Below, one piece after another: positions 9,271 through 58,918 of a stretch of DNA of 64,000 nt. Positions within the stretch are counted from its first letter, which is position 1. Every line of letters begins with the position of its first letter. Position numbers and translations under genes: made by a program. This stretch comes from Terriglobus saanensis SP1PR4 (lineage in GTDB: Bacteria > Acidobacteriota > Terriglobia > Terriglobales > Acidobacteriaceae): positions 3,038,001 to 3,102,000 of the forward strand of contig NC_014963.1 of the NCBI RefSeq assembly GCF_000179915.2. Reading direction: 5' to 3'. The notes under the pieces were generated by a model that was not told the origin of the DNA, did not search any database, and saw only the letters and a list, made by a program, of their open reading frames with translations.

Positions 9271-10632
9271 CTAGACCTGCGTGGCGATCGCCGAAACCTT
9301 CCGCTGCTTCCACTTGCCTCGAGTAAAGTCGGGAAACTCCACGGGCGCGCTGCCGTGGCTGACTGAAGCAACGCTGAGCGGAGCTACGGAAGACCAGGCA
9401 GCAGTGTCATAGACATCGATGTCCGGCGGCAAGCCTTCGCGTACGCACTGCAGCAAACGGTAAAGCATGATGTAGTCCATGCCGCCGTGACCGCCAAGCT
9501 TCTGCGCGATCTCCCCTTCGGTCTTCCAAAGCGGATGCTGATACTCCTTCCACTTATCGATCGGCTCCCACGACTCATCGGAGTTCTGTCCGTCGAGATA
9601 GATGCGCGGAGGATAGTCCTGAAAAACGCCCTTCGTTCCGGCGATCAAGTTGATCCTGTCATAGGGATGAGGGTTCGCCACCGCGTGCTTCACGGTGATC
9701 GTCAGACCGTTCACCGTCTTGATCATGGAAGTGTTCATATCGCCGGTGACGTACTTCTCCGCCATGCGCGGATCGTCTGCCTTCAAATGTTCTTTGCGGT
9801 AGGCGTCCAGACCGCGTTGCGGCGTGCTCATCGAAACGATGTACCCGAAGCGATCGCCGCGTTGGATCCCCATATAGTTCGCTACCGGTCCTAGCCCGTG
9901 GGTTGGATAGATATTGCCGTCGCGTTTGAGGTGCTCGGCACGCCGCCACAGACCCTCACCTGCTGTTGAGAACAGCTCTTCGCGCAAGTCGTGAAGGTAA
10001 GCTCCCTCTCCGTACAGCAGCTCGCCAAACTTCCCTGCATGCACCATCCGCAGGATGAGCGTCTCGTTGTATCCGTAACAACAGTTCTCCAGCATCATGC
10101 AGTGCTTGCGTGTCTCTTCCGACGTCTTCACGATCTTCCAGCAATCTTCGATTGTTGTAACCCCAGGCACTTCGAGGGCGACATCTTTGCCATGCTTCAT
10201 GCCGAAGATCGCCATCTCCGTATGCCAGACCCACGGAGTCGCAATCACAACCAGGTCTACATCCTGCCTGCTAAGCATCTTCTCAAAATCGTGCGGACCG
10301 TCTGTATAGAGCTCCGGCTTCTTCTGCCCTGCCGCTACCACGAGAGAAGCCGCGTGCTCGGCCTTCTCCTTCACAAGATCGCAGAGACCCACCATCTGCG
10401 CATCGGCGGCGAGCAGGTTCTGGAGCAGGTTCGTGCCTCGACCTCCAGTCCCGATCAAGACCACGCGCGGGTCTTTCTTTTGAAAAGGCACGTCGATCAT
10501 CGTTGCCGACCCGGACGCTTCGGCATGCGCAAGGCTTCCCAGGTTTGCGGCAACGGCAGTCGCCGCACTCATCTGCATAAAGCGCCGCCTGCTCCACGAC
10601 GCAAAACTTATTTCCTTATCGTCGAAGTTCAT
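9271..10632 (-). CDS. GH109-type Gfo/Idh/MocA protein (alpha-N-acetylgalactosaminidase-like), TAT-exported
   Basis: A 453-aa protein with a twin-arginine signal (SWSRRRFMQMSAATAVA). It has a Rossmann NAD site (RVVLIGTGGRGTNLLQNL, about residues 56-73), then the GH109 pattern: VVIATPWVWHTEMAIFGMKHG, ALEVPGVTTIEDCW, MMLENCCYG, GELLYGEGAYLHDLREELF. GH109 enzymes use tightly bound NAD to cleave alpha-linked GalNAc by an oxidation-elimination route. The ATG at 10632 has AAGGAGAGTC just ahead. It is convergent with agaS and divergent from the nagX-like gene. A plain dehydrogenase of the same superfamily is the alternative, but the EVPG and HDLRE motifs favour GH109. It probably acts in the periplasm. 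Confidence 0.8.
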   Translation of the reverse strand: MNFDDKEISFASWSRRRFMQMSAATAVAANLGSLAHAEASGSATMIDVPFQKKDPRVVLIGTGGRGTNLLQNLLAADAQMVGLCDLVKEKAEHAASLVVAAGQKKPELYTDGPHDFEKMLSRQDVDLVVIATPWVWHTEMAIFGMKHGKDVALEVPGVTTIEDCWKIVKTSEETRKHCMMLENCCYGYNETLILRMVHAGKFGELLYGEGAYLHDLREELFSTAGEGLWRRAEHLKRDGNIYPTHGLGPVANYMGIQRGDRFGYIVSMSTPQRGLDAYRKEHLKADDPRMAEKYVTGDMNTSMIKTVNGLTITVKHAVANPHPYDRINLIAGTKGVFQDYPPRIYLDGQNSDESWEPIDKWKEYQHPLWKTEGEIAQKLGGHGGMDYIMLYRLLQCVREGLPPDIDVYDTAAWSSVAPLSVASVSHGSAPVEFPDFTRGKWKQRKVSAIATQV

Positions 10633-10747
10633 CGACTCTCCTTAGCCCGCCTAAGTCACATTCATCACAAGATGTCGTCGTCAACGAATCTTTTGGATGA
10701 GCTTATTGGATGAATCGAAACCTGTCAAAACAATAAATGCCATCATC

Positions 10748-10762
10748 GAAAGAATTTGAAAG
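10748..10762 (-). promoter_or_regulatory. Candidate AgaR/DeoR-type operator in the divergent GH109/nagX region
   Basis: Read on the minus strand, CTTTC-AAATT-CTTTC occurs here: two identical pentamers 10 bp apart, like the repeat before agaS. It lies 18 bp upstream of the chosen nagX start and 116 bp upstream of the GH109 start, so it could serve both. Confidence 0.35.
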
Positions 10763-10779
10763 CTAACGAAGGATTCACC

Positions 10780-12039
10780 ATGCTAGAATCGGCGCACACT
10801 ACGACAGAAGACATTCAAGTCGTAGCCACACTGCTTGGGAGATCCTTCATGGGCACATCCGTAGCCGTTCCGCCGCAACGCAACGTTGCAGTCGATGCCT
10901 ATCGCGGCTTAGTCATGCTGCTCATGATGGGCGAAGTCATGCAGTTTGAAGTCGTGGCCCGCTCTTTCCCGAGCAGTACCATCTGGCGCATACTCTCCTT
11001 TAATCAAAGCCACGTGCAGTGGGTCGGCATGGGTCTCCACGATATGATCCAGCCGTCCTTCACCTTTCTGGTGGGCGTCGCTCTTCCCTACTCGCTACGC
11101 AGTCGTCAGAAAAAGGGTCAGAGCTTCCAGAAGATCGTCGGCCACACCATCTGGCGAAGCTTTCTTCTTGTCGCCCTGGGTATCTTTCTGAGGTCCATCC
11201 ACAGCCCCATGACGAACTATACGTTCGAAGATACGCTCACGCAGATCGGTCTTGGGTATACCTTTGCCGTCCTCCTCACCTTTGTTCGACCGCGCTGGCA
11301 ATGGACAGCCTTCGGTACACTCTTATTCTTTTACTGGCTCGCCTGGGCGCTCTATCCCGCGCCCGGCCCCAACTTCCCTTATGCTTCCGTTGGAGTTCCG
11401 GACGCCTGGCACCAGCATCTTCTTCATGGCTTCGCCTCGCACTGGAATAAGAACAGCAATCTTGGACAGGCCTTCGATGTCTGGTTCCTTAATCTGTTTC
11501 CCCGCCCGGATCGCTTCCTTTTCAATGAAGGTGGCTATCTGACGCTCAGTTTTATCCCCACGCTCGCCACCATGCTTCTTGGACTGGCTGCAGGACGTTG
11601 GTTTATCGCGAGCACACCGGTCATTCCAATTCGCAAATTCCTTATCGCCGCTGTGCTTCTCCTGAGCGGGGGACTTTTGTTGCACTTTACCGGTATCTGT
11701 CCCATCGTTAAACGAATCTGGACGCCTGCCTGGACGCTCTGGAGCGGCGGTGTCTGCTTTCTCTTTCTCGCAGCCTTCTCCTGGTTTGTAGACATCAAGA
11801 AAAACACACGGATTGCCTATCCTCTTGTTGTAGTGGGAATGAACTCCATCGCCGCTTACCTGATGGCCCACCTCTTCGAAGATTTCATCCTAAGCAGCTT
11901 CCGTATTAACTTGGGCATGCGTGTCCTGAACGTCTTTGGCACAGCGTTGGAGCCGGTCTTTATAGGTGCACTCACGCTCGCGATCTATTGGCTTATACTG
12001 CACTGGATGTTCCGGAACAAGATTTTCCTTCGCATTTGA
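10780..12039 (+). CDS. NagX-like multi-pass membrane protein (heparan-alpha-glucosaminide N-acetyltransferase family)
   Basis: A roughly 419-aa integral membrane protein with about ten hydrophobic segments. RNVAVDAYRGLVMLLMMGEV at the start, DMIQPSFTFLVGVALPYSL, and the late GMNSIAAYLMAHLFEDF mark the family that includes bacterial NagX and the mammalian HGSNAT acetyltransferase. Family members are found in amino-sugar catabolic clusters; whether NagX acetylates or transports is unsettled. The ATG at 10780 has GAAGGA at 10768-10773; an in-frame TTG at 10756 and ATG at 10849 are alternatives. It is followed 23 bp later by the DeoR-type regulator, so the two are probably cotranscribed. It lies divergent to the GH109 gene. 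Confidence 0.75.
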   Translation: MLESAHTTTEDIQVVATLLGRSFMGTSVAVPPQRNVAVDAYRGLVMLLMMGEVMQFEVVARSFPSSTIWRILSFNQSHVQWVGMGLHDMIQPSFTFLVGVALPYSLRSRQKKGQSFQKIVGHTIWRSFLLVALGIFLRSIHSPMTNYTFEDTLTQIGLGYTFAVLLTFVRPRWQWTAFGTLLFFYWLAWALYPAPGPNFPYASVGVPDAWHQHLLHGFASHWNKNSNLGQAFDVWFLNLFPRPDRFLFNEGGYLTLSFIPTLATMLLGLAAGRWFIASTPVIPIRKFLIAAVLLLSGGLLLHFTGICPIVKRIWTPAWTLWSGGVCFLFLAAFSWFVDIKKNTRIAYPLVVVGMNSIAAYLMAHLFEDFILSSFRINLGMRVLNVFGTALEPVFIGALTLAIYWLILHWMFRNKIFLRI

Positions 12040-12062
12040 CCACGGGCAAAAGATTGGGCGAG

Positions 12063-12890
12063 ATGAAGAAAGAAGTAGCCAAGAGACATCTCAACGAAAC
12101 ACGTATAGAAGAACCCTTGCAAGAAGGCATGATGGCCGAAGAGCGGCGCATGCAGATCCTACAGATCCTCCGGTCGGAAGGCCGGGCCAAGGTCAACGAA
12201 CTCGCCCAGCGCTTCAACACCTCCGCCGTAACTATTCGTAGTGACCTCAATGAACTAGATCAGCGCGGCCTGGTGCAGCGCTCACACGGTGGTGCGGTCA
12301 TTCAGGACACCGTCTTCCGCGAGTCGCCAGTCCACGAGCGAATCAAGAGTCAATCTAAAGAGAAGCAGCGCATTGGTGCAATGGCTGCTACCCTCGTTCG
12401 CGAGGGAGAGACCATCATCCTCGATTCAGGTACGACTGCTCTTGAGGTCGCTCGCAATCTAAAAAATATTCCCATGATTCAGGTCATCACCAATGGCGTG
12501 AACATTGCAGCGGAACTGCTCAACTCTCGCAACACGCAGATCATCATGATGGGTGGCACCGTCCGTAACGACTCTGCCTCGATCGTCGGCCGTTCCACCG
12601 AAGACATGCTGGAGCAGTTCTCTGCCGACAAGCTCTTCCTCTGCGGCGCTGGCTGCGATCCCGACTTCGGTGTGAGCGGCACAAACCTCGAGGAGACCAT
12701 GGCGAACCGCGCCATGCTCCGCGCTGCACGCGAGATCATTGTTGTTGCCGATGCCAGCAAATTCAGTAAGCGCAGTATGTCTCTAATCGCCTCCTTCTCA
12801 GAAGTCGACATCGTCATCAGCGATGTAAGCATGCTGCCAGAGGTGCAGGAGAGAATCCGTTCCTTCGGCTGCAAACTGATTCTGGTGTAA
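12063..12890 (+). CDS. agaR: DeoR-family transcriptional regulator (AgaR-like)
   Basis: A DeoR-type repressor. The winged HTH is RRMQILQILRSEGRAKVNEL followed by SAVTIRSDLNEL and the signature RSHGGAV. The C-terminal sugar-phosphate-binding domain has ETIILDSGTTALEVARNL, NSRNTQIIMMGGTVR and FLCGAGCDPDFGVS. Such proteins are released from DNA by a phosphorylated sugar. The start is uncertain: ATG 12063 follows nagX by 23 bp; ATG 12132, four bases after AGAAGG, also fits the usual DeoR N-terminus. Linkage to agaS, GH109 and nagX suggests GalNAc/galactosamine control. The related TTTC-repeat sites nearby are candidate targets. A strong terminator follows. Confidence 0.8.
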   Translation: MKKEVAKRHLNETRIEEPLQEGMMAEERRMQILQILRSEGRAKVNELAQRFNTSAVTIRSDLNELDQRGLVQRSHGGAVIQDTVFRESPVHERIKSQSKEKQRIGAMAATLVREGETIILDSGTTALEVARNLKNIPMIQVITNGVNIAAELLNSRNTQIIMMGGTVRNDSASIVGRSTEDMLEQFSADKLFLCGAGCDPDFGVSGTNLEETMANRAMLRAAREIIVVADASKFSKRSMSLIASFSEVDIVISDVSMLPEVQERIRSFGCKLILV

Positions 12891-49777: not shown

Positions 49778-49806
49778 TTGACTGCTCACAGGTCGCACCC
49801 TATAGT
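49778..49806 (+). promoter_or_regulatory. Sigma-70-type promoter of the tyrosinase-LodA-laccase cluster
   Basis: TTGACT (49778-49783) and TATAGT (49801-49806) with exactly 17 bp between. Transcription would start near 49813 and leave a leader of about 124 nt before the tyrosinase start at 49937. Confidence 0.7.
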
Positions 49807-49936
49807 GGCTCGACGAACCTGTAGAGTTCTTTCGCGTTCGGGCCCACCTTCTGCATATCTCCCCTCTGTCATCTTCTTTTCCGATTCTGAATTCCCGCGC
49901 TCGCTTGTGCGTTGTCAGAAATCTGTCGAGGTGTAT

Positions 49937-51967
49937 ATGCCGGTGGCCAGCTCTTCTCTTTCGTTCCACGATGTCCAAGCCCTTCTCAAAAAAGCCGCGA
50001 ACGATCAGATATCCGCCTTCGCCGGTCTTCCGCTCAGTGAGTTCTCTCGCGAGGAGTTCCTGACCGCGAAGATTTTGGGACTTCCTCTCGTCACGCTACC
50101 TGCTAAAGGCGGTTGCTGCTCAGGCAAAACGGCTCCGTCTGCTTCCGATTCCGTCCTGTTATTGGGCCTGCGCGGCCAAGCACCCTTCGACGGCTCGCAG
50201 TTTCCACGGCTTCCCCTGGGACAACCGCCGATGGCAGACGAGGACATTGACGCAATCGAGCGATGGATTCTGGAAGGCGCTCCGGAGAGCGCTCCAGCAC
50301 ATGCAAGCTATCCCCTTCCCGACAGCGATTGGACCCACCAGACCAACATGGAGGTGGTAGAGGTCGAAGCCTGCGACGATGCCCTGCAGGCCTTTGCTGA
50401 ATATGACGGCGAGAGCAACGAATACCGCTACCAGAACGGAGAGCTGCGCCAGCGCGTCAACATCGATTGCATGACAGAAGCGCAACTTGCGCGACTGCGT
50501 GAGGCTTTCGCACACCTTTATGCCTTGAACGACTGGGCGGAGGATGCGCGCAGTTACAACAATGTCGCACTCATCCACCAGAACCATTGCCAGCATGGAT
50601 GGGAACGCTTTCTGCCATGGCATCGCGTTTATCTGTACGAGATGGAGCAGGTCATCCAGGAGTTCTATCCTGACGTCACGCTGCCGTACTGGGACTGGAC
50701 GATGCCGCAATATCGGCCAGCGCAGCCGGACAAGGGTGAGATCATCCCACCCGCACTGCAGGCTTTTCTCACGAAGGCTTCGCTACCGTATTTGCACTCA
50801 AACGGCATCCCGACGGGAGCACTACAGCCCATCGTGGACCAGCGCTTCGCTTCACAACAGAGCTTCTTTACCGCAGTAAGTCAACTCATCGGCCCAATCT
50901 ACTGCGTTGGAAAGTATCGAGAAAGCTTTCTGGATGCTCTGCTCGCTGCCAATCCGCTCTGGTATCCCCTGCGGTATCCCGGCGAATTTGCTGGCTCCAC
51001 AATCAACAAGACCATCCACTATCACTACCCCACAGCGGACGACATGGCGCAGATCATGAGCCTGCGCACGTTCCGCGACTTCGGAGGTGGCAGCTTTTAC
51101 GATGACGCCTTCGGCTTCATGGACCAGAATCCGCACAACACCATGCATATCTGGACTGGCGGCATGAATCCGCAGTTTGACCAGCAGCAACCACTCTCCC
51201 TGCTGGGGAAGAGCGATCGCAACCGCGGCGTAAAAGTGGCTGGCCGCGCCTTCCATCGCAAGTCGGATCTCTACTCTCAGCCGCAGTTCGGCGATATGTT
51301 CAGCAACCTCACAGCTTCCTACGATCCGGTCTTCTGGCCGATCCATGTGAACATCGATCGCCTGTGGCATGAGTGGCAGTTGCTTAATCCCCACTCGAAT
51401 CCCGTGGATCTCGATTCAGTTCTTACGCCGTGGAGTTACACCGTACGCGACACGCTGGAGATGAAGCGATTCGGATACGAATATATGCGCAGCTCCTGCC
51501 TACTGCCCGTGGGAGCAGCTTCGCCTGTAGCACGTTTCACTTCACGTTCCATCCCCGTCGCGGAAGGTACGCGTACCGCGTTCCGTACCGCAGAGATCCG
51601 TCTGCACCGCGTTCCGCAGTTGCCACGCTCCTGCTTTGTGCGTGTGTTCCTGAACCTGCCCGACGCAAACGCAAACACGCCGATGGAAGACGTTCATTAC
51701 GCCGGATACTTCGCGATCTTCGGGCACGGCGATTGCATAGGAGGCCCCGGTCACTGCGCCGTTCCCGTGCGTGGAAAGTATGATCTGCGGCCTCGTAGCC
51801 ACAACACACCGCGCAACCATCGCGTGGATGTGACGAAGACAGCGCGCAGCCTCTTCGATGCGGGCGCCACCGAGATCAGCATCACGCTGGTGGTGATTGG
51901 GGCCGACTACGAAGAGGAACGCGAACTCTTCCGGCTCGACGGCGTGTCTCTCAACTTTCTGGATTAG
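49937..51967 (+). CDS. Tyrosinase (polyphenol oxidase) with an N-terminal haem-less cytochrome-like domain
   Basis: A 676-aa type-3 copper enzyme. CuA: H214/H217, then C218-Q-H220-G-x3-F-x2-W-H229-R (CQHGWERFLPWHR). CuB: H400 and H404 in PHNTMHIW, plus H470 in DPVFWPIHVNIDRLW. Tyrosinases oxidise phenols to o-quinones. Residues about 1-110 resemble the cytochrome-c-like domains of bacterial Cyt-fused proteins (DEDIDAIERWILEGAP), but the expected CxxCH haem site is replaced by GGCCSG. The last 150 residues form a beta domain, as in plant and bacterial latent polyphenol oxidases. No signal peptide is seen. The ATG at 49937 follows GAGGTG. First gene of a six-gene cluster. Confidence 0.88.
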   Translation: MPVASSSLSFHDVQALLKKAANDQISAFAGLPLSEFSREEFLTAKILGLPLVTLPAKGGCCSGKTAPSASDSVLLLGLRGQAPFDGSQFPRLPLGQPPMADEDIDAIERWILEGAPESAPAHASYPLPDSDWTHQTNMEVVEVEACDDALQAFAEYDGESNEYRYQNGELRQRVNIDCMTEAQLARLREAFAHLYALNDWAEDARSYNNVALIHQNHCQHGWERFLPWHRVYLYEMEQVIQEFYPDVTLPYWDWTMPQYRPAQPDKGEIIPPALQAFLTKASLPYLHSNGIPTGALQPIVDQRFASQQSFFTAVSQLIGPIYCVGKYRESFLDALLAANPLWYPLRYPGEFAGSTINKTIHYHYPTADDMAQIMSLRTFRDFGGGSFYDDAFGFMDQNPHNTMHIWTGGMNPQFDQQQPLSLLGKSDRNRGVKVAGRAFHRKSDLYSQPQFGDMFSNLTASYDPVFWPIHVNIDRLWHEWQLLNPHSNPVDLDSVLTPWSYTVRDTLEMKRFGYEYMRSSCLLPVGAASPVARFTSRSIPVAEGTRTAFRTAEIRLHRVPQLPRSCFVRVFLNLPDANANTPMEDVHYAGYFAIFGHGDCIGGPGHCAVPVRGKYDLRPRSHNTPRNHRVDVTKTARSLFDAGATEISITLVVIGADYEEERELFRLDGVSLNFLD

Positions 51968-52015
51968 TCCGTAGCAGAGATCGCCGATGGTGTGCCATCG
52001 CAAAGGAGTGGATTC

Positions 52016-54757
52016 GTGAGCGACAAGCAGTCAATTCCCATTTACAAGATTCACCCCGGCATCGGTATCGCACGCCTGGGAAATAGCCCGGATGAGTTCT
52101 GCATCTCTCCGGAGACGCCCGCGTCACTTCCCATCGCATGCGACGCGCAAGGTAATCCTTCCGTTACGGCGGACGGCTCAGGCCCGGTGCGTATCGATCT
52201 GTTCAAGGATATTCGAGGGCGCATTAAGCGCCAGGCCGCGCGCTTCCAGGTGTATGTCTACGACGACGCGAGTCCGGAGGGCCGCCCGCTCAGGATCGGC
52301 GACACAATTGAAGGAGGCGGCAATCGTGGCGTCCTGAGCAACATTCAGTGGCGCGTCTATCTGGCCAACAAGAAAAGCGCCTGGTACGAGTTTCAACAGC
52401 TCGAAGGCGAACATGGCTACCTTCCTGGCCATCCGCTGCGTAACGCGGACATCACGGACCCGAACGCGCGTCAGCGCTTGATCATAGATGCTGGCCCCCA
52501 GATCGTCGACCTTCAGGGCAAGCGCCGAGCCGCGTTCAATCGTTACGCTGGCGATACCTACGCGACCACCTTTCCACCAGAGGATTTACAGCCGAGCGCC
52601 ATTCACACGCTGGGCGAGATCCTTACCGACAATGAGGGCCGCCTCCTGGTGCTCGGTGGCCACGGCTACTCCGGAAGCTTTAACACCGGTTTTGGCGAAC
52701 CGCGCATCAACACCTACGCCAACAACGACGGCTGGTTTGACGACACCTCCGACGGCCCCGTCCATGCACGTCTCTTCATGTACTCGGAGGAGGTCGCACG
52801 CACGCGCTACATCGATGTCGAATATCCGTCGTGGGTGATCGCGGGATATCCGGCCTACGTTCCCCAGGTTCTCGACATGGTCACGCTGGACGACGTGATG
52901 CAGGACATGGCAGTCACACAGTTTGCTACATGCACTCACCTCTACGGCAAGGCTGGCACGTTCAACGACCCACAACACATTGCTCCTTCCGACACCGGAG
53001 AGCTTGCTCTTTGGAAGGCCTCAGACCTACGCTGGAATCCCACCTACAAGCCCTGGTTCTATCGCGACATCTGGAGCATCCTCTTCCGCGCCGACGAGTA
53101 CACCTATCTGACCAACGTGCTCGCCGGCTCTAACTACCCGCATAACCAATCGCCGCGCGGAAACTTCGATCCCGACAAGCTTTCGATCCCTCCGAAGTTG
53201 AACGAAAAATCCTATGTACGGGCCAGCCAATCGGCGGTGGAAGCAAACAACTCCGGCGCGCTCTTCTTCGAAGCGATGGACGCAGGCCTGGACCTGATGG
53301 ATCAACAAGCCGTCAACTCTCGCAAAGAACGGGAAGGCTTCCGGCTCATGGCCGTGGTCAAGAAGGCTTCGTCGCGAGAAGAGTTACTGGCAGCCCTGCA
53401 GCACTTTGCCGAAGTCACGTGCGGCAGTATCCCGCCCACCGAAGTCGATCCCTACCTCGCGCACTGGAAGCTTCTGTATGCGCAGTCGAAGGAGGCAGAG
53501 ACGGATCCGGGCGAGGCTTATCGTGAAGCGCGCGACCGTCTCGAAACAGCCATCCACAACTTCGCCGAGGAACTCACACCTCCGCGTGCGTTAGTTGCCG
53601 CGGAAAACCCTGCAGCCTCGCTTACCGCCACCACACCACCATCGCAGCAGGCCGTCTCTCCTCATCGCGCAATTCTCACTCTGCTGGATCGGCTCTCCAG
53701 CCAATTCCGCTCGGGCACACTTCTGGCGGACGCTCTCGCGCGCGCGCGCGCCGAAAACACCGCCGACCCCTTCCGCGCTTATCGCACGTATCTCTACGAC
53801 CTGTTGCGCAAGACCGGGGAAGAGAATGTCTTCCGCGTCGAAACCAAACCCTCTAGCCGGGTGCATCATCTTCCGCTGATGCCGCTGCTCAGCGGCGATA
53901 ATCCCATCTCGAACAACCTGCCGTCCAAATTCCTTTGCCTGACGGATTTCCAACTTTATCTGCTGAAGCAGTGGGGAGAAGGAAACTTCTACAACGAGAT
54001 CCTCGAAGGTTGGGTTCCAGCTTCGGAGATCGATCCATGGCAGCCTTACTTGAACCTGCAGGCAAAGACGGGTCTGGAGCTCGATCGCTACGTTATCTCC
54101 AATCTTGCGGGAGGCGCATTCTGTCCCGGCGCTGAAGTGGGTTGGATCATGCGCAACCCTTCCATCTATGTAGAGCCCTACCGTATCAAGGCCGACCCAC
54201 TCTTCTCTAGCTTCCGCCAGACTGCGGCGAATGAGAACCAGATCGGCGTCACCGAGGTGAACTACAGCGCGTACATCGACCAACCGCTCAGTCAGGCCAG
54301 CGACTACAGGAAGGGACTGCAGCCCGGCGACCTGACCAAGATGATGGCGCTCCCCTGGCAGGCCGACTTCAACGAATGCTCGACCCAGGAGATCAACGTC
54401 TCCTATGAACTCTTCAACCAGATCAATCCCGACAGCGAGCAGGACTTCTGGCTGCAGCGCGAGAACCAGGTATGGGAGACGCTCTGGTGGCCAGCGCATC
54501 GTCCGATGCAAGCCTATGAATTCATTCCCGGCACAGAGAGCAACCCGGCATTCCAGATTGTGAATTGGGCCTGGGGCATTCCGCAGACCAACGCGGGAGA
54601 CCTGAAGATGGTCACCGAGTGGTCTCGGTTGGGCTTCCTTATACGCAACTTCTATATCCCGCAGGCGGAGTTGAACGTGCCGTCTCCGGCAAACCCCAAA
54701 TACATCAGCGTTGAACGCAACACCCTGGAAAAACGAGAAGGAGAAAGCGATGAGTAA
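52016..54757 (+). CDS. LodA-like amino-acid oxidase with cysteine tryptophylquinone cofactor
   Basis: A 913-aa protein of the LodA/GoxA family, whose members oxidise a free amine of amino acids (lysine epsilon-amine in LodA, glycine in GoxA) using a cofactor built from Cys and Trp of the same chain. Family landmarks: YKIHPGIGIARLGNSPDEF at the start, LGGHGYSGSF, TYANNDGWFDDTSDGPVHAR, and the cofactor region GGAFCPGAEVGW (C703) and MALPWQADFNECS (W781). It is longer than LodA (about 726 aa, recalled) because of extra helical sequence at about 460-620. GTG 52016 follows AAGGAG. It lies 48 bp after the tyrosinase and ahead of a LodB-like gene that would make the cofactor. Substrate unknown. Confidence 0.82.
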   Translation: MSDKQSIPIYKIHPGIGIARLGNSPDEFCISPETPASLPIACDAQGNPSVTADGSGPVRIDLFKDIRGRIKRQAARFQVYVYDDASPEGRPLRIGDTIEGGGNRGVLSNIQWRVYLANKKSAWYEFQQLEGEHGYLPGHPLRNADITDPNARQRLIIDAGPQIVDLQGKRRAAFNRYAGDTYATTFPPEDLQPSAIHTLGEILTDNEGRLLVLGGHGYSGSFNTGFGEPRINTYANNDGWFDDTSDGPVHARLFMYSEEVARTRYIDVEYPSWVIAGYPAYVPQVLDMVTLDDVMQDMAVTQFATCTHLYGKAGTFNDPQHIAPSDTGELALWKASDLRWNPTYKPWFYRDIWSILFRADEYTYLTNVLAGSNYPHNQSPRGNFDPDKLSIPPKLNEKSYVRASQSAVEANNSGALFFEAMDAGLDLMDQQAVNSRKEREGFRLMAVVKKASSREELLAALQHFAEVTCGSIPPTEVDPYLAHWKLLYAQSKEAETDPGEAYREARDRLETAIHNFAEELTPPRALVAAENPAASLTATTPPSQQAVSPHRAILTLLDRLSSQFRSGTLLADALARARAENTADPFRAYRTYLYDLLRKTGEENVFRVETKPSSRVHHLPLMPLLSGDNPISNNLPSKFLCLTDFQLYLLKQWGEGNFYNEILEGWVPASEIDPWQPYLNLQAKTGLELDRYVISNLAGGAFCPGAEVGWIMRNPSIYVEPYRIKADPLFSSFRQTAANENQIGVTEVNYSAYIDQPLSQASDYRKGLQPGDLTKMMALPWQADFNECSTQEINVSYELFNQINPDSEQDFWLQRENQVWETLWWPAHRPMQAYEFIPGTESNPAFQIVNWAWGIPQTNAGDLKMVTEWSRLGFLIRNFYIPQAELNVPSPANPKYISVERNTLEKREGESDE

Positions 54758-55172
54758 GAATCCATGGGTCGGAAGTTGGACCTACCGTAGTCTCTTGAAC
54801 GATCCGGATGGTTCAGTGGACTTCGACAAACTTGAATTTGGCGAAGGCACCATCGTCATTCATGATGACAACGCCAGCGAACTGCTTACAGGCACCATTG
54901 GTGGCCCGGGCTGGTCTCTCACGCTGCATGGCTCACGCGCCTACGGATCTCCCTCGCAGGTCCGGTTCGAAGGCAAAGGTCTCGTGGGCGGAGAGCTCTG
55001 GATCTATGACTATATCGGTTGGCTGGTGCCCGTCTGGCCCAATAGTACCGAACAACTGCAACGTACCGCGTTTGTAGGATCAGTCGTACGGACCATCCCT
55101 CACTCCAATGGCAACGGCGGCACCGCACCCGCAGGCGTGGTTGCGTCGTTCTATGCGGTCAAGGTGGATTAG
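54750..55172 (+). CDS. Small beta-rich protein of unknown function between lodA- and lodB-like genes
   Basis: A 140-aa protein without signal peptide. It is rich in Gly, Trp and alternating strand patterns: MSKNPWVGSWTYRSLLNDPD, GTIVIHDDN, TGTIGGPGWSLTLHG, GGELWIYDYIGWLVPVWPN, VGSVVRTIPHS, PAGVVASFYAVK. This could be a single small beta-barrel of the avidin/lipocalin kind, but I recognise no family. The ATG at 54750 has AGAAGGAG before it and overlaps the LodA stop by 8 bases; the LodB start comes 1 base after its stop. Such tight packing implies a role with the quinone oxidase, for example as a subunit or maturation aid; that is inference. Confidence 0.65.
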   Translation: MSKNPWVGSWTYRSLLNDPDGSVDFDKLEFGEGTIVIHDDNASELLTGTIGGPGWSLTLHGSRAYGSPSQVRFEGKGLVGGELWIYDYIGWLVPVWPNSTEQLQRTAFVGSVVRTIPHSNGNGGTAPAGVVASFYAVKVD

Positions 55173-55173
55173 C

Positions 55174-56283
55174 GTGCTGCATCCCATCTATGACGTCGCT
55201 GTGCTGGGTGGCGGCCCCGCGGGCTGTGCCTGCGCGCTCTCTCTGCGACAGTGCTGGCCCCACCTGACTGTTGCCGTCGTAGAGGCATCGCAGTACGACA
55301 CACCGCGTGCTGGCGAGATACTGGCACCGCAGGCTATGCCTCTGCTTCACCGATTGCGTGTCGACGCAACCAAGGATGCCCAAACGCTTGTGGCCCAAAG
55401 TATAGCCTTGTCCTGGGGAGACCCCACACTCTCCGAACACCATCATCTCTTCTCCGCACACGGATTCGGTCTTCACCTGGACCGCCGCGCCTTCGACCGC
55501 CATCTCGCTCAAGCCGCAGAGAAGCAGGGAGCGACTTTGCTTCAGGGAACAACCTTTCGCGCGGCCCATCGTGATACCGGGACATGGACGATGGATCTTC
55601 GTGGAGCAGAGAACCTTCGTTCGCGCTTCGTTGTCGATGCAACTGGCCGCAACGCCGTCTTTGCTCGCTCGCAGCGCGTCAGAAGCGATCTCTTCGACCG
55701 ATTGACTGCCTACAGTCTCACCACGCAAATGCGGGTTGAAGTAGCCCAGACCATGATCGTCGAAGCCTGCGCGCTTGGCTGGTGGTACACCGCACCTCTT
55801 CCCAGCGGCCATCGGATCATCAGCCTGCTAACAGATGTGGACCTGGCCCGCGCTGCCGGTTTGCCCGCGCGCGCGGTTTGGGAGCAGCATCTGGCGCAGA
55901 CACGGCATCTCGCCATGCTGCATACCGAAACGCTCACAAAAACCTTGCAAGTCGTCCCGGCATTCACCACCGTACTGCATTGCGCGGGGAGCACAGGGTG
56001 GGTCGCTGCAGGCGATGCCGTCGCAAGCTATGACCCTCTCGCAGGTCAAGGAATCACCAAAGCATTGCACACCGGAATCCTCGCCTCCTACGTCGCCGCG
56101 GAGAGCCTGATGGGCCGCGAACCCGAAGCAAAGGCGCGCTATGAAGCTATGCTGAGAGCGAATCTGGCGGGGTATCGCCACATGCACCGTACTCATTACG
56201 CGCGCGAGAAGCGCTGGGCCGATCAGCCCTTTTGGCAGCGACGTCATTCGCCCCCCGCCCGTTTGCGAGAGGTCGCCGCATGA
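55174..56283 (+). CDS. LodB-like FAD-dependent maturation protein
   Basis: A 369-aa flavoprotein of the tryptophan-halogenase/geranylgeranyl-reductase-like group. FAD sites: YDVAVLGGGPAGCACALSL at the N-terminus and GWVAAGDAVASYDPLAGQGI (about residue 275). LodB-type proteins are needed to form the cysteine tryptophylquinone in the partner LodA, by hydroxylating the tryptophan. The gene starts at GTG 55174, one base after the 140-aa gene, with AAGGTGG ahead; an earlier ATG falls inside that gene. The stop overlaps the next start as ATGA. LodA partnership is inferred from family and position. Confidence 0.82.
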   Translation: MLHPIYDVAVLGGGPAGCACALSLRQCWPHLTVAVVEASQYDTPRAGEILAPQAMPLLHRLRVDATKDAQTLVAQSIALSWGDPTLSEHHHLFSAHGFGLHLDRRAFDRHLAQAAEKQGATLLQGTTFRAAHRDTGTWTMDLRGAENLRSRFVVDATGRNAVFARSQRVRSDLFDRLTAYSLTTQMRVEVAQTMIVEACALGWWYTAPLPSGHRIISLLTDVDLARAAGLPARAVWEQHLAQTRHLAMLHTETLTKTLQVVPAFTTVLHCAGSTGWVAAGDAVASYDPLAGQGITKALHTGILASYVAAESLMGREPEAKARYEAMLRANLAGYRHMHRTHYAREKRWADQPFWQRRHSPPARLREVAA

Positions 56284-56867
56284 AAACGTCACAGCACTCG
56301 CCGAAAGGTACGCGCTCCGGCCTCTTTGCCATGGCGCTTGTGCCCAAGCTCGGATGTCCGCTCTGCTGGCCTGCTCTGGGCGCGCTTTGCAGCGTTCTGG
56401 GAGTGCGCCTCGCAACCCTCGATTGGGTACTCCTTTTAGTCAATACCGCCGCACTTCTGTTTGCACTGAAGCTGAACATGCAAGAACGGTGTGGCGCAGC
56501 GGCGACGGCAGCAGTCGCGGCTTTGTCCGCGGCGCTGTCGTATCGCCTTGGAGCCGGTTTGGCTCTTAGTCTTTGCACGGGCCCCCTGATTGCGATGATC
56601 CCGCTTCTGATGCGACGTCTCGCATGCCACTCCACACCTTCCACCTCAACCGCTTCACCTCAAAGGAAGCCCCATGCGCATTCGAATCAACATTGCTTGC
56701 CTGCTTGCCTTCTCTGCGCTTACCCTTCCCGTTCCGCCGCTCATGGCGCAGAAACCTCCAGTCGTGCACAACTTCCAGCAGCCGCCTTTGCTGACGGAAG
56801 TTCTACCCAACGCACCAGCGACAAAGTTTCTTCGCCTCAGCACATCCGCCTTCAAGTCCACCTGTAA
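56280..56867 (+). CDS. Small membrane protein with a CPLC motif; 3' end overlaps the laccase gene
   Basis: The ATG overlaps the LodB stop (ATGA). The first 120 residues form a small membrane protein with VPKLGCPLCWPALGALCSVL, then hydrophobic stretches LDWVLLLVNTAALLFALKL and AALSYRLGAGLALSLCTGPL. A CxxC at the first membrane helix recalls MerC-like metal transporters and thiol carriers, so copper handling for the two copper enzymes is a possible role (inference). After about residue 130 the protein turns polar and low-complexity, and the frame runs 194 bp into the laccase gene before its stop at 56865-56867. The real protein may have ended near 56640-56670 before a mutation removed the stop. 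Confidence 0.6.
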   Translation: MKTSQHSPKGTRSGLFAMALVPKLGCPLCWPALGALCSVLGVRLATLDWVLLLVNTAALLFALKLNMQERCGAAATAAVAALSAALSYRLGAGLALSLCTGPLIAMIPLLMRRLACHSTPSTSTASPQRKPHAHSNQHCLPACLLCAYPSRSAAHGAETSSRAQLPAAAFADGSSTQRTSDKVSSPQHIRLQVHL

Positions 56868-58857
56868 TCCCAACGGCAACGTCAAACGTGTCGGCGCCGA
56901 GGTCTACGCCACGCTTCATTACGTGCTCGGGAAGTTCACCATCAATAATCCGGACCCCGACGATCCCGAAGGTGGTGAAGACCCGGTTGAACTGCGTTCG
57001 TACGGCGGATGCAACTCCGGTCCCACGCTGGAAGTGCTGCCGGGGAATACCCTGCACATCAACCTCATTAACGACCTCAGCAAGGTCGATCCATCGTGCG
57101 AAGTACCCTCCCCTGACGGTCTGGCTCTGCCTCCCGGCGTCGGCTGCTTCAACACGATGAACATCCACACGCACGGTCTGCATATCTCGCCTACCGGCAA
57201 CAGCGACAATGTGCTCCTGAGCATCGCACCGAAGACCGAATTCCCGTACGAGTTCAACATTCCCAATGACCATCCCGCTGGCACGTTCTGGTATCACTCG
57301 CATCGTCACGGATCGACGGCGACCCAGGTAGCGAGCGGCGCCTCCGGCATTCTCGTGGTGCGTGGCAATCGTCCCTATGTTCCGCCTACGCCCGATGATC
57401 CGCACCCGCTGGCGGATATCGACACCATCTTGCACGACAGCAGCGGAACTCCCACGCCAGAGAAACTCTTCCTCCTGCAGCAGATCCCTTACGCTTGCTT
57501 CCAAAACATACCGGACCAGAAAGGCGGCCCGTGGCAGGCGATCTTCACCACCAAAGGCCTCTATACGGTCGCGAGCACCGATCCCAACGGTCCGTTGAAC
57601 GCTCCCTGGATCTGCCCCAAACCCACTCCACAGAATCACGCGACCATAGGCGCAATCGAAAACTTCAATCTGCAGATGTTCTCTTCCAGCATCTGGGACA
57701 CCAACGGCCGTTTCACCACGGTGAATGGCGTCGTGCAGCCGACTGTTACTCTTCCCGCCGGAGAGATCCAACGCTGGAGGTTTGTTCACGCTGGCATTCA
57801 CGACACCATAAATCTTCAGGTAGTGCGCGCCTCTCTGCCCCGCGTAGGAGCCAACCTGGTCGCCACCTCTGCGTTACTGGGCAACCGGCTTCAGCAGAAA
57901 TCCGCAGTACAACAACTTTGTGTCGCCACTCCGACGACACTCATCCCGCAGTTTGAGATTGCCGTAGATGGTTTGACCCGCAAGCACTTGGAAAAGGTCG
58001 GTGACGGTGGCGACAACGAATCCAATTACATGCAGCCCGGCTATCGTAGCGATATTCTGCTCGTCTTTGCTCAGGATGGTGATTACTGCCTGCTCGATCA
58101 GGCCGCGCCTCCCTCGCAACGCGTCAACCCCGCAACAGGCACTGGCGGTGGACAGGGACCCTCCACACCACAACTGCTTGCTTACATTCATGTTCGCGGC
58201 GGCAGAGCCGTTGCAGGAGATCTGCAAGAGTACATCGAAAAGTCTCTGGCGGCTGCGAATCCTCAACTGCCGCAGAGCGTCCGCGACGGTTTACTCAAGG
58301 GCAACCTCTCACCCTGGGCTCCGTTCCTTGAACTCCCCGCACCGCACAGCGACCTTCAAAAGGCGGGCTTCTCCATCGCATTTCCTAAATTTATGGTGAA
58401 CAATGCCGTCTATGACCCCGACGTCGTAAACATCACGCGACAGGTCAACACCTCCGACGACTGGCTTCTCACCGCCGAAGGAGAGCCCCACATCTTCCAT
58501 ATTCACGTGAACCCGTTCGAGATCATGGACGTCACGTATCTGGAGGCGAATGGACAGCAGGTCTCAATCTACGATAAAAGCGGTCACTGCCGCACAGACC
58601 TTCCGATCGATAAACAGGAGATGCAGAAGCAGTACTGCAGCATGTACCACGTCTTACGCGACACGGTCTTCGTCGAGAATGGCTACCAGGTGCACGCTCG
58701 CACCTTCTACGACCGCTACATCGGTGAATTTGTGATCCACTGCCACATTCTGGATCACGAAGACGCTGGCATGATGCTCAACATCGAAATCGTTCCAGAC
58801 CTCAACGCTCCCGGCCATGGTTTGGGCATGGATGTGATGCACGCACACAATCCCTGA
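56674..58857 (+). CDS. Secreted multicopper oxidase (laccase-type)
   Basis: A 727-aa exported enzyme; the signal peptide is CLLAFSALTLPVPPLMAQ. All four copper-binding stretches are present: NIHTHGLH (H165, H167), FWYHSHRHGS (H208, H210), HIFHIHVNPF (HxxHxH) and VIHCHILDHEDAGMM (H689-C690-H691, H695, with M700 as the axial ligand of the type 1 copper). It would couple oxidation of phenols or metal ions to reduction of O2 to water in the periplasm. AAGGAAG stands before the ATG. A late Met/His end (LGMDVMHAHNP) may bind extra copper. Last gene of the cluster, followed by a hairpin. Confidence 0.9.
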   Translation: MRIRINIACLLAFSALTLPVPPLMAQKPPVVHNFQQPPLLTEVLPNAPATKFLRLSTSAFKSTCNPNGNVKRVGAEVYATLHYVLGKFTINNPDPDDPEGGEDPVELRSYGGCNSGPTLEVLPGNTLHINLINDLSKVDPSCEVPSPDGLALPPGVGCFNTMNIHTHGLHISPTGNSDNVLLSIAPKTEFPYEFNIPNDHPAGTFWYHSHRHGSTATQVASGASGILVVRGNRPYVPPTPDDPHPLADIDTILHDSSGTPTPEKLFLLQQIPYACFQNIPDQKGGPWQAIFTTKGLYTVASTDPNGPLNAPWICPKPTPQNHATIGAIENFNLQMFSSSIWDTNGRFTTVNGVVQPTVTLPAGEIQRWRFVHAGIHDTINLQVVRASLPRVGANLVATSALLGNRLQQKSAVQQLCVATPTTLIPQFEIAVDGLTRKHLEKVGDGGDNESNYMQPGYRSDILLVFAQDGDYCLLDQAAPPSQRVNPATGTGGGQGPSTPQLLAYIHVRGGRAVAGDLQEYIEKSLAAANPQLPQSVRDGLLKGNLSPWAPFLELPAPHSDLQKAGFSIAFPKFMVNNAVYDPDVVNITRQVNTSDDWLLTAEGEPHIFHIHVNPFEIMDVTYLEANGQQVSIYDKSGHCRTDLPIDKQEMQKQYCSMYHVLRDTVFVENGYQVHARTFYDRYIGEFVIHCHILDHEDAGMMLNIEIVPDLNAPGHGLGMDVMHAHNP

Positions 58858-58868
58858 TCCTTTGCTAG

Positions 58869-58893
58869 GAGGGCATGCCGCAAGCATGCCCTC
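58869..58893. terminator. Hairpin between the laccase and the convergent acyltransferase gene
   Basis: GAGGGCATGC (58869-58878), loop CGCAA, and the perfect complement GCATGCCCTC (58884-58893). It lies 12 bp after the laccase stop and 26 bp before the acyltransferase stop. T-content after the stem is modest. Confidence 0.65.
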
Positions 58894-58918
58894 TCACTCA
58901 GCACAATGCCTGTATTTC

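Follow-up and report, generated by a model that had tools for sequence, protein, structure and literature searches.

Within a 64,000-nucleotide stretch of the Terriglobus saanensis SP1PR4 genome (positions 3,038,001 to 3,102,000 of NC_014963.1; the genome is a single contig of 5,095,226 bp), hereafter referred to as the window, we identified a six-gene cluster that is a real, intact and conserved cassette of a published kind. The cluster spans positions 49937–58857 on the plus strand and encodes, in this order, a tyrosinase, a LodA-like oxidase, a 140-amino-acid small protein labelled SM, a LodB-like flavoprotein, a membrane protein with a CPLC motif and a multicopper oxidase (MCO), and all six open reading frames (ORFs) are intact. 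We consider it probable that this is a lodA operon of group ID (Campillo-Brocal 2015, PMC4417212) and that it acts as a cassette for copper-dependent phenol oxidation with an amino acid or amine, in which SM serves the tyrosinase in trans. What is new is the identity of the small protein, together with the recurrent membrane protein beside it; the mechanism and the substrate are what we infer. The genes of the cluster are:

49937..51967 (ATG start), plus strand: type-3 copper tyrosinase, 676 amino acids (Pfam Tyrosinase, 120.7 bits)
51992..54757, plus strand: LodA-like amino-acid/amine oxidase with a quinone cofactor (cysteine-tryptophylquinone, CTQ), 921 amino acids (LodA_N 193.9 bits, LodA_C 154.9 bits)
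54750..55172, plus strand: SM, 140 amino acids, predicted eight-stranded and barrel-like (AlphaFold2; profile match to a PvdP-like fusion)
55174..56283, plus strand: LodB-like flavoprotein, putative CTQ maturase (best NCBIfam match maturase_LodB; GGGPAG motif)
56280..56867, plus strand: membrane protein with a PKLGCPLCWP motif (no Pfam family)
56674..58857, plus strand: laccase-like multicopper oxidase, 727 amino acids (Cu-oxidase_2 and Cu-oxidase_3)

As a preliminary description of this DNA had claimed, the six genes are closely packed, with junctions of +24 nt (tyrosinase/LodA), −8 nt (LodA/SM), +1 nt (SM/LodB), −4 nt (LodB/CPLC, ATGA) and, last, a long overlap of −194 nt (CPLC/MCO). The +1 value holds if the GTG at 55174, 1 nt past the SM stop, is the LodB start, as is likely; mechanically, this frame is open from 55108. 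The long overlap is absent from both relatives with the same gene order, in which the CPLC frame ends at about the MCO start.

Conservation of the gene order

A scan of genome contigs with the SM alignment gave 143 relatives, and 80 loci were retained. Both tyrosinase and LodA are carried by 57 of the 80; in every one of these 57, the tyrosinase gene lies immediately before LodA on the same strand (with a gap of more than 100 nt between open frames in three), which bears out the claim that the genes form a conserved unit. SM follows LodA immediately in 55 of the 57 (exceptions L029 and L094; the different order otherwise printed for L036 and L049 is an artefact of stop-to-stop frames). According to record titles, with two lineages looked up, the 57 loci belong to eight phyla: Acidobacteriota, Pseudomonadota, Cyanobacteriota, Gemmatimonadota, Nitrospirota, Planctomycetota, Bacteroidota and Eremiobacterota.

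Eleven further loci have a MepA-type tyrosinase without LodA. In five (L043, L057, L076, L081, L083), LodA lies so close to the end of the contig that the upstream part is lost; L046 combines an MCO with a short LodA-like ORF, and L064 has only an MCO. By profiles, the last five lack tyrosinase, LodA and MCO; in one of them, L102 (cyanobacterium Petrachloros, 10001–12724), a gene about 250 bp downstream of SM encodes a hemocyanin/phenoloxidase of the arthropod type (Hemocyanin_M, Hemocyanin_C), which was found by a Pfam scan of ten neighbouring ORFs of four tyrosinase-less SM loci. Profiles detected no tyrosinase beside SM in six of the 80 loci (L046, L064, L087, L092, L095, L099), of which some lie close to the end of a contig. 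In five of the six genomes, all but that of L099, a Pfam tyrosinase is encoded elsewhere, outside the SM stretch.

The MCO gene is last and on the same strand, as in the window, in 10 of the 80 loci. All six genes in the window order, which the preliminary description had proposed to seek in other acidobacterial genomes, were found in two other Acidobacteriaceae records, L028 (from a metagenome-assembled genome; truncated inside the tyrosinase gene at the 5' end) and L037 (Edaphobacter modestus). This speaks against the refuting condition given there, that no related genome keeps the order. The nearest relatives found share the gene make-up of the cluster. By tblastn, three rhizobial plasmids carry the order MCO-tyrosinase-LodA-SM-LodB, with LodA split into two ORFs in one of them. 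Identities to the window proteins are 55–58% for LodA and tyrosinase (57–58% for the tyrosinase compared with its rhizobial plasmid homologues) and 42–43% for the MCO (L015, L016), and 63–70% for SM and 38–40% for LodB (L015, L016, L018). On plasmid pMHb of Mesorhizobium huakuii 7653R (L018, L022), which carries nif/fix genes, the cassette is split into two pieces that lie far apart among insertion sequences, IS6 included, and p42d of Rhizobium etli CFN42 (L119) has an MCO-SM pair without an adjacent tyrosinase and an avidin-family gene about 2 kb off.

Among Acidobacteriota the genes are rare. Counting the T. saanensis genome itself, LodA_N was detected in 7 of 297 genomes, SM in 2 of 396 (at most ten candidates per genome scored) and a Pfam tyrosinase in 9 of 149; among the other genomes of the genus that were listed, LodA_N was found in none of four and SM in none of six. 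In the LodA tree, Alphaproteobacteria and Acidobacteriota each appear in several places. This rarity and the scattered tree positions suggest that the cassette spread horizontally, although the GC content (58–60% across 48–58 kb, compared with 53–60% across the window) shows no compositional island. By profiles, none of nine other LodA loci, taken from six acidobacterial genomes regardless of SM, has a tyrosinase, SM or MCO within stretches of 11–16 kb, while eight of the nine have LodB; one of these genomes (G125) holds three LodA genes and Pfam tyrosinase matches, far apart.

Distance matrices agree best for the pair tyrosinase-LodA (rho 0.847, 53 sequences; maximum of 0.316 in 999 permutations), followed by tyrosinase-SM (0.708), LodA-SM (0.692), tyrosinase-LodB (0.602) and LodB-SM (0.348). 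For 48 loci, the tyrosinase tree has 27 splits supported at 0.9 or above and the LodA tree 31; 20 of these are common to both, and 3 of the 27 conflict. LodA and LodB have 15 such splits in common, and 10 of the 31 conflict. We regard this pattern as suggestive only, because LodB changes faster and SM is short, both of which may depress the values.

The small protein and its proposed relation to PvdP

The preliminary description merely listed the small protein as having no known function. It is right that no Pfam or NCBIfam family matched the window SM, and membership of a known family was ruled out (one of four homologues scanned gave a weak Pfam match below the cut-off, E 0.14); yet SM turned out to be the most telling part of the operon type. 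AlphaFold2, applied to 54 SM sequences, predicted eight strands (pLDDT 92.2, pTM 0.85), which we read as closing into a barrel. Residues invariant among the 54 include G8-x-W10, R114 and H118, the sole invariant histidine, and there is no invariant cysteine or methionine. A GxW start combined with a late arginine is a hallmark of calycins (lipocalins, avidins).

A plasmid of Mesorhizobium onobrychidis (L026:7986–12643) encodes an SM-type domain as the N-terminal part of a 513-amino-acid PvdP-like tyrosinase. An SM profile built without this fusion matches its N-terminal domain over model positions 4–134 of 135 (i-E 2.9e-17), and the fusion matches PvdP over residues 3–482 of 513 (E 3e-90). Because the fusion is thus homologous to SM at one end and matches PvdP, the most plausible reading of SM is that of a detached barrel of PvdP type, a relationship deduced from sequence comparison that runs solely through the fusion protein; a search with an SM alignment that contained the fusion was discounted as evidence. 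The fusion gene adjoins LodA, with LodB convergent on the other strand, and the locus is apparently an independent assembly of the same functions. Two other PvdP-like plasmid pieces among the matches viewed, one of them a 73-residue stretch without an annotated gene, have no LodA annotated near them. In the class to which one gammaproteobacterial SM locus belongs, PvdP homologues were detected in 1 of 185 genomes, and that match was merely its SM.

The CPLC membrane protein

The membrane protein is not a PpoB2/DUF2182 protein: Pfam gave nothing for it at E values of up to 1, while a PpoB2 match was obtained for a rhizobial neighbour. In a scan for PK-x(0-3)-CPxC across the 16,261 ORFs of loci L001–L107, 11 of the 13 matches lie on the plus strand in or beside an SM/tyrosinase cluster, and the other two (L031, minus strand, and L065) look like chance frames. 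The 11 clustered matches, which correspond to 11 of the 80 SM loci, are located (i) between LodB and MCO (L028, L037); (ii) before the tyrosinase (L029, L030, L080, L091); (iii) between SM and a MepA-type tyrosinase (L096, L098, L100, L107); or (iv) after SM (L094). They span Acidobacteriota, Planctomycetota, Bacteroidota and Betaproteobacteria; the view that the gene is confined to acidobacterial copies was therefore wrong, as the motif scan of all ORFs revealed. Searches with the protein itself gave no plasmid match and a match in one of 61 relatives' genomes, its own. Three aligned acidobacterial CPxC proteins are just 26–27% identical to that of the window, so that homology of all CPxC proteins is likely but not proven. 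We propose the protein as a candidate for copper supply or copper/thiol handling for the copper oxidases.

The enzymes of the cluster

Residues for the copper sites, the thioether pair and the CTQ are all intact in the cluster enzymes. Conservation was assessed in alignments of the window proteins with those ORFs of L014–L016 and L028–L107, a part of the loci, that were long enough (53 tyrosinases, 58 LodA, 44 MCO). The tyrosinase comprises an N-terminal region of about 150 residues with a Cys-Cys pair, a tyrosinase core and a C-terminal region of about 185 residues. Six histidines (H214, H220, H229, H400, H404, H470), which we take from the family motifs to be the copper ligands, and Cys218, presumably the thioether cysteine, are kept in 54 of 54 sequences; the C60-C61 pair is kept in 50 of 54, the other four having gaps. 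By eye, the N-terminal region (window 49937–50400) resembles a planctomycete-type cytochrome domain without its heme, in which the Cys-Cys pair is a possible metal site. The enzyme misses the NCBIfam cut-off for MelC2 tyrosinases (62.7 bits compared with 450) and is not of the Streptomyces type.

In LodA, positioned by alignment to 2ymw, C796 is kept in 59 of 59 sequences and W833 in 58 of 59; by comparison with the family, these two presumably form the CTQ. D792 is likewise kept in 59 of 59. Scores fall below the NCBIfam equivalog cut-offs for LodA (325.6 bits, cut-off 600) and GoxA (178.4, cut-off 750), so that the protein is a member of the family, not shown as a lysine or glycine oxidase. 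The protein contains an insertion of about 180 residues (about 412–592). Among 14 LodA proteins compared, seven (L015, L028, L030, L031, L037, L054, L080) have it, and from the other seven, including two from Acidobacteriota, it is wholly or largely missing. The LodB-like protein also scores below the cut-offs for LodB (250 bits, cut-off 400) and GoxB (220.1, cut-off 400); these models are nevertheless its best matches, and the gene is in the expected place. In the MCO, which lies under every NCBIfam cut-off listed, 12 of 12 tested residues that presumably bind copper, assigned from the family, are kept in 45 of 45 sequences.

By eye, neither the tyrosinase nor LodA has a signal peptide, whereas the N-terminus of the MCO resembles a Sec-type signal; the proposal of one cytosolic and one exported copper enzyme thus agrees with what we found. 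The T. saanensis genome encodes a second, MepA-type tyrosinase (G000:C1:2815524–2816270; L002; L134:5772–7484), which is adjoined by a PpoB2-like gene (34% identical to rhizobial PpoB2) and has an MCO about 2.6 kb off.

Flanking elements

Upstream of the cluster lie DUF5996 and SelO genes, and downstream a convergent acyltransferase gene followed by a lipocalin gene. Two non-coding elements were noted:

49778..49806, plus strand: promoter-like site TTGACT-17-TATAGT upstream of the tyrosinase (10 of 12 consensus matches)
58869..58893, plus strand: hairpin after the MCO gene with a 10-bp stem, a possible terminator without a T-run (folding energy)

The site described earlier as a well-spaced promoter is present, but its significance did not survive comparison with shuffled sequences: three such sites were found, compared with 4.0 ± 2.1 in shuffles, which is chance level, so that the site is not evidence for anything and was dropped as a sign of one transcript. 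The hairpin region (58858–58905) has a folding energy of −22.7 kcal/mol (z −3.7), and the convergent acyltransferase gene lies beyond it.

Proposed function and alternatives

In the reading we favor, a cassette for phenol oxidation, the tyrosinase, without a signal peptide, would oxidize a tyrosine-like monophenol or catechol to an o-quinone, and SM, as a stand-alone calycin-like barrel, would bind it in trans for folding, capping or substrate loading, much as the N-terminal barrel of PvdP acts within one chain. LodB would give LodA its CTQ, and LodA would deaminate an amino acid or amine to an aldehyde, ammonia and H2O2. Outside the cell, the exported MCO would oxidize the resulting catechols to a melanin-like polymer, and the CPLC membrane protein, which recurs beside tyrosinase-SM loci, may be involved in copper delivery or handling. 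The role in phenol oxidation and pigment formation put forward in the preliminary description gains backing from the related tyrosinase-MCO-small-protein melanin cluster of Sinorhizobium meliloti GR4 (PMC7010606); its suggestion of a role in peroxide release and antagonism is an analogy.

Several observations weigh against this interpretation. As the 80 loci were selected by SM, they are silent on how often LodA occurs without it. SM occurs with neither a Pfam tyrosinase nor one of the arthropod type in two genomes, that of L099 and the acidobacterial genome G386 (SM at a contig end), and, conversely, the second T. saanensis tyrosinase has no SM within a 14-kb stretch. SM-only profiles did not retrieve PvdP from the Protein Data Bank (PDB) at up to E 10 (one unrelated chain each), nor did the N-terminal domain of the fusion alone match anything there. 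Congruence between LodA and LodB is weak (rho 0.461), and every one of the cluster enzymes lies below the NCBIfam equivalog cut-offs, so that no activity can be transferred from any named enzyme.

Instead of capping the enzyme or handling its substrate, SM might act as a copper chaperone in the manner of MelC1 or PpoB2. Tyrosinases often have helper proteins (PMC2855505), and SM tracks several classes of type-3 copper enzymes; however, SM offers a single invariant histidine and neither cysteine nor methionine among its invariant residues, and since PpoB2-type genes also adjoin SM and tyrosinase, and 11 of the 80 loci have the CPxC membrane protein, the copper role may already be filled. We therefore find a chaperone doubtful. 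Somewhat less probable still, and in our view unlikely, is that the cassette serves chiefly as an oxidative weapon or as a factor in biofilms, with LodA making H2O2 and the copper enzymes making toxic quinones or detoxifying phenols or copper. This would fit the antimicrobial amino-acid oxidases of LodA group IA (PMC4417212) and the importance of the S. meliloti melanin genes in defence against Myxococcus predation (PMC7010606). However, group ID is without known activity, no signal peptide is visible on LodA by eye (secretion is nevertheless reported for the LodA of Marinomonas mediterranea; PMC2855505), and peroxide requires no fixed pairing with a tyrosinase, a pairing absent from all nine other acidobacterial LodA loci.

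That SM and the tyrosinase mature or modify LodA (e.g., by phenol or indole hydroxylation) alongside LodB, with the MCO as a separate copper-tolerance gene, strikes us as improbable. The tyrosinase is indeed the partner that co-evolves best with LodA (0.847 compared with 0.461 for LodB) and precedes it without exception in the 57 loci. However, the greater divergence of LodB may depress its correlation, the lod and gox operons of M. mediterranea, as described, have LodB and GoxB as maturation partners and contain no tyrosinase (PMC4417212), and tyrosinase and SM also exist without LodA (11 of 80 loci). A broader reading, which we put forward tentatively and hold to be somewhat less than even in probability, is that SM is the prototype of a family whose members act as stand-alone barrel partners of type-3 copper enzymes generally and that, in LodA operons, it couples tyrosinase and LodA. 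It draws on the contexts in which the domain occurs: as a separate protein in operons with tyrosinase and LodA or with MepA, as part of a PvdP-like tyrosinase, and next to a phenoloxidase of the arthropod type; the often present CPxC membrane protein would be the copper supplier. If this were true, quinone and aldehyde/amine products would meet in a bacterial version of quinone tanning.

Comparison with known systems

With PvdP, the tyrosinase of pyoverdine maturation (PDB 6eys, 6rrp), the cluster shares the architecture of a barrel plus a tyrosinase; in the window these are separate genes, the tyrosinase is of another class, and the four flanking genes scanned are not siderophore genes. According to a review, phenylthiourea blocks the substrate pocket of PvdP, binding residues located between its tyrosinase domain and its N-terminal barrel (PMC9569983). 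The same three kinds of enzyme are known from Marinomonas mediterranea as PpoA, PpoB1 and LodA; there they are co-regulated, and their genes lie apart in the genome (PMC4417212), unlike those of the window. An earlier review describes the three oxidases as encoded consecutively in Saccharophagus degradans (PMC2855505).

On plasmid pRmeGR4b of S. meliloti GR4, an SM homologue, 56% identical, lies between MCO and tyrosinase genes, a locus we take to be the published mcoA-C770_GR4pB024-mepA melanin cluster, in which mcoA and mepA, with a hypothetical gene between them, are both responsible for copper-inducible melanin (PMC7010606). The two clusters share an MCO and a tyrosinase flanking an SM homologue; unlike the window, that of S. 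meliloti has no LodA or LodB, and its tyrosinase is of the other type (MepA), with a weak match to a Tat signal (17.4 bits, cut-off 22.7). The synteny of small gene, MCO and tyrosinase is already in print, as PMC7010606 notes mcoA-hypothetical-mepA in rhizobia, Caulobacter flavus and Granulicella mallensis; among searchable papers, we found none that connects the small gene with either MepA clusters or PvdP.

The closest counterpart is group ID itself, with operons that contain lodA, a gene for 138–142 amino acids and lodB plus tyrosinase and MCO genes; the small gene is reported for 10 genomes, with operons that also hold the tyrosinase and MCO genes (PMC4417212). The 11 members of group ID include one acidobacterium; at that time, a lodA-like gene was found in 1 of 34 acidobacterial genomes. 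This member is probably the T. saanensis genome, an identity only inferred because the main text of PMC4417212 does not name Terriglobus (0 occurrences). The window shares with group ID a LodA-like gene, a small gene (SM, 140 amino acids), a LodB-like gene, a tyrosinase and an MCO packed together, and adds the CPLC membrane gene, which the sections of PMC4417212 used here do not mention. In those sections the small gene is assigned no role, and both this role and the reason why three oxidases travel together are left open. Connecting the small protein with the MepA melanin cluster and with the barrel of a PvdP-like tyrosinase makes its role testable and offers a structural model, and the fixed tyrosinase-LodA pair across eight phyla points to a coupled chemistry.

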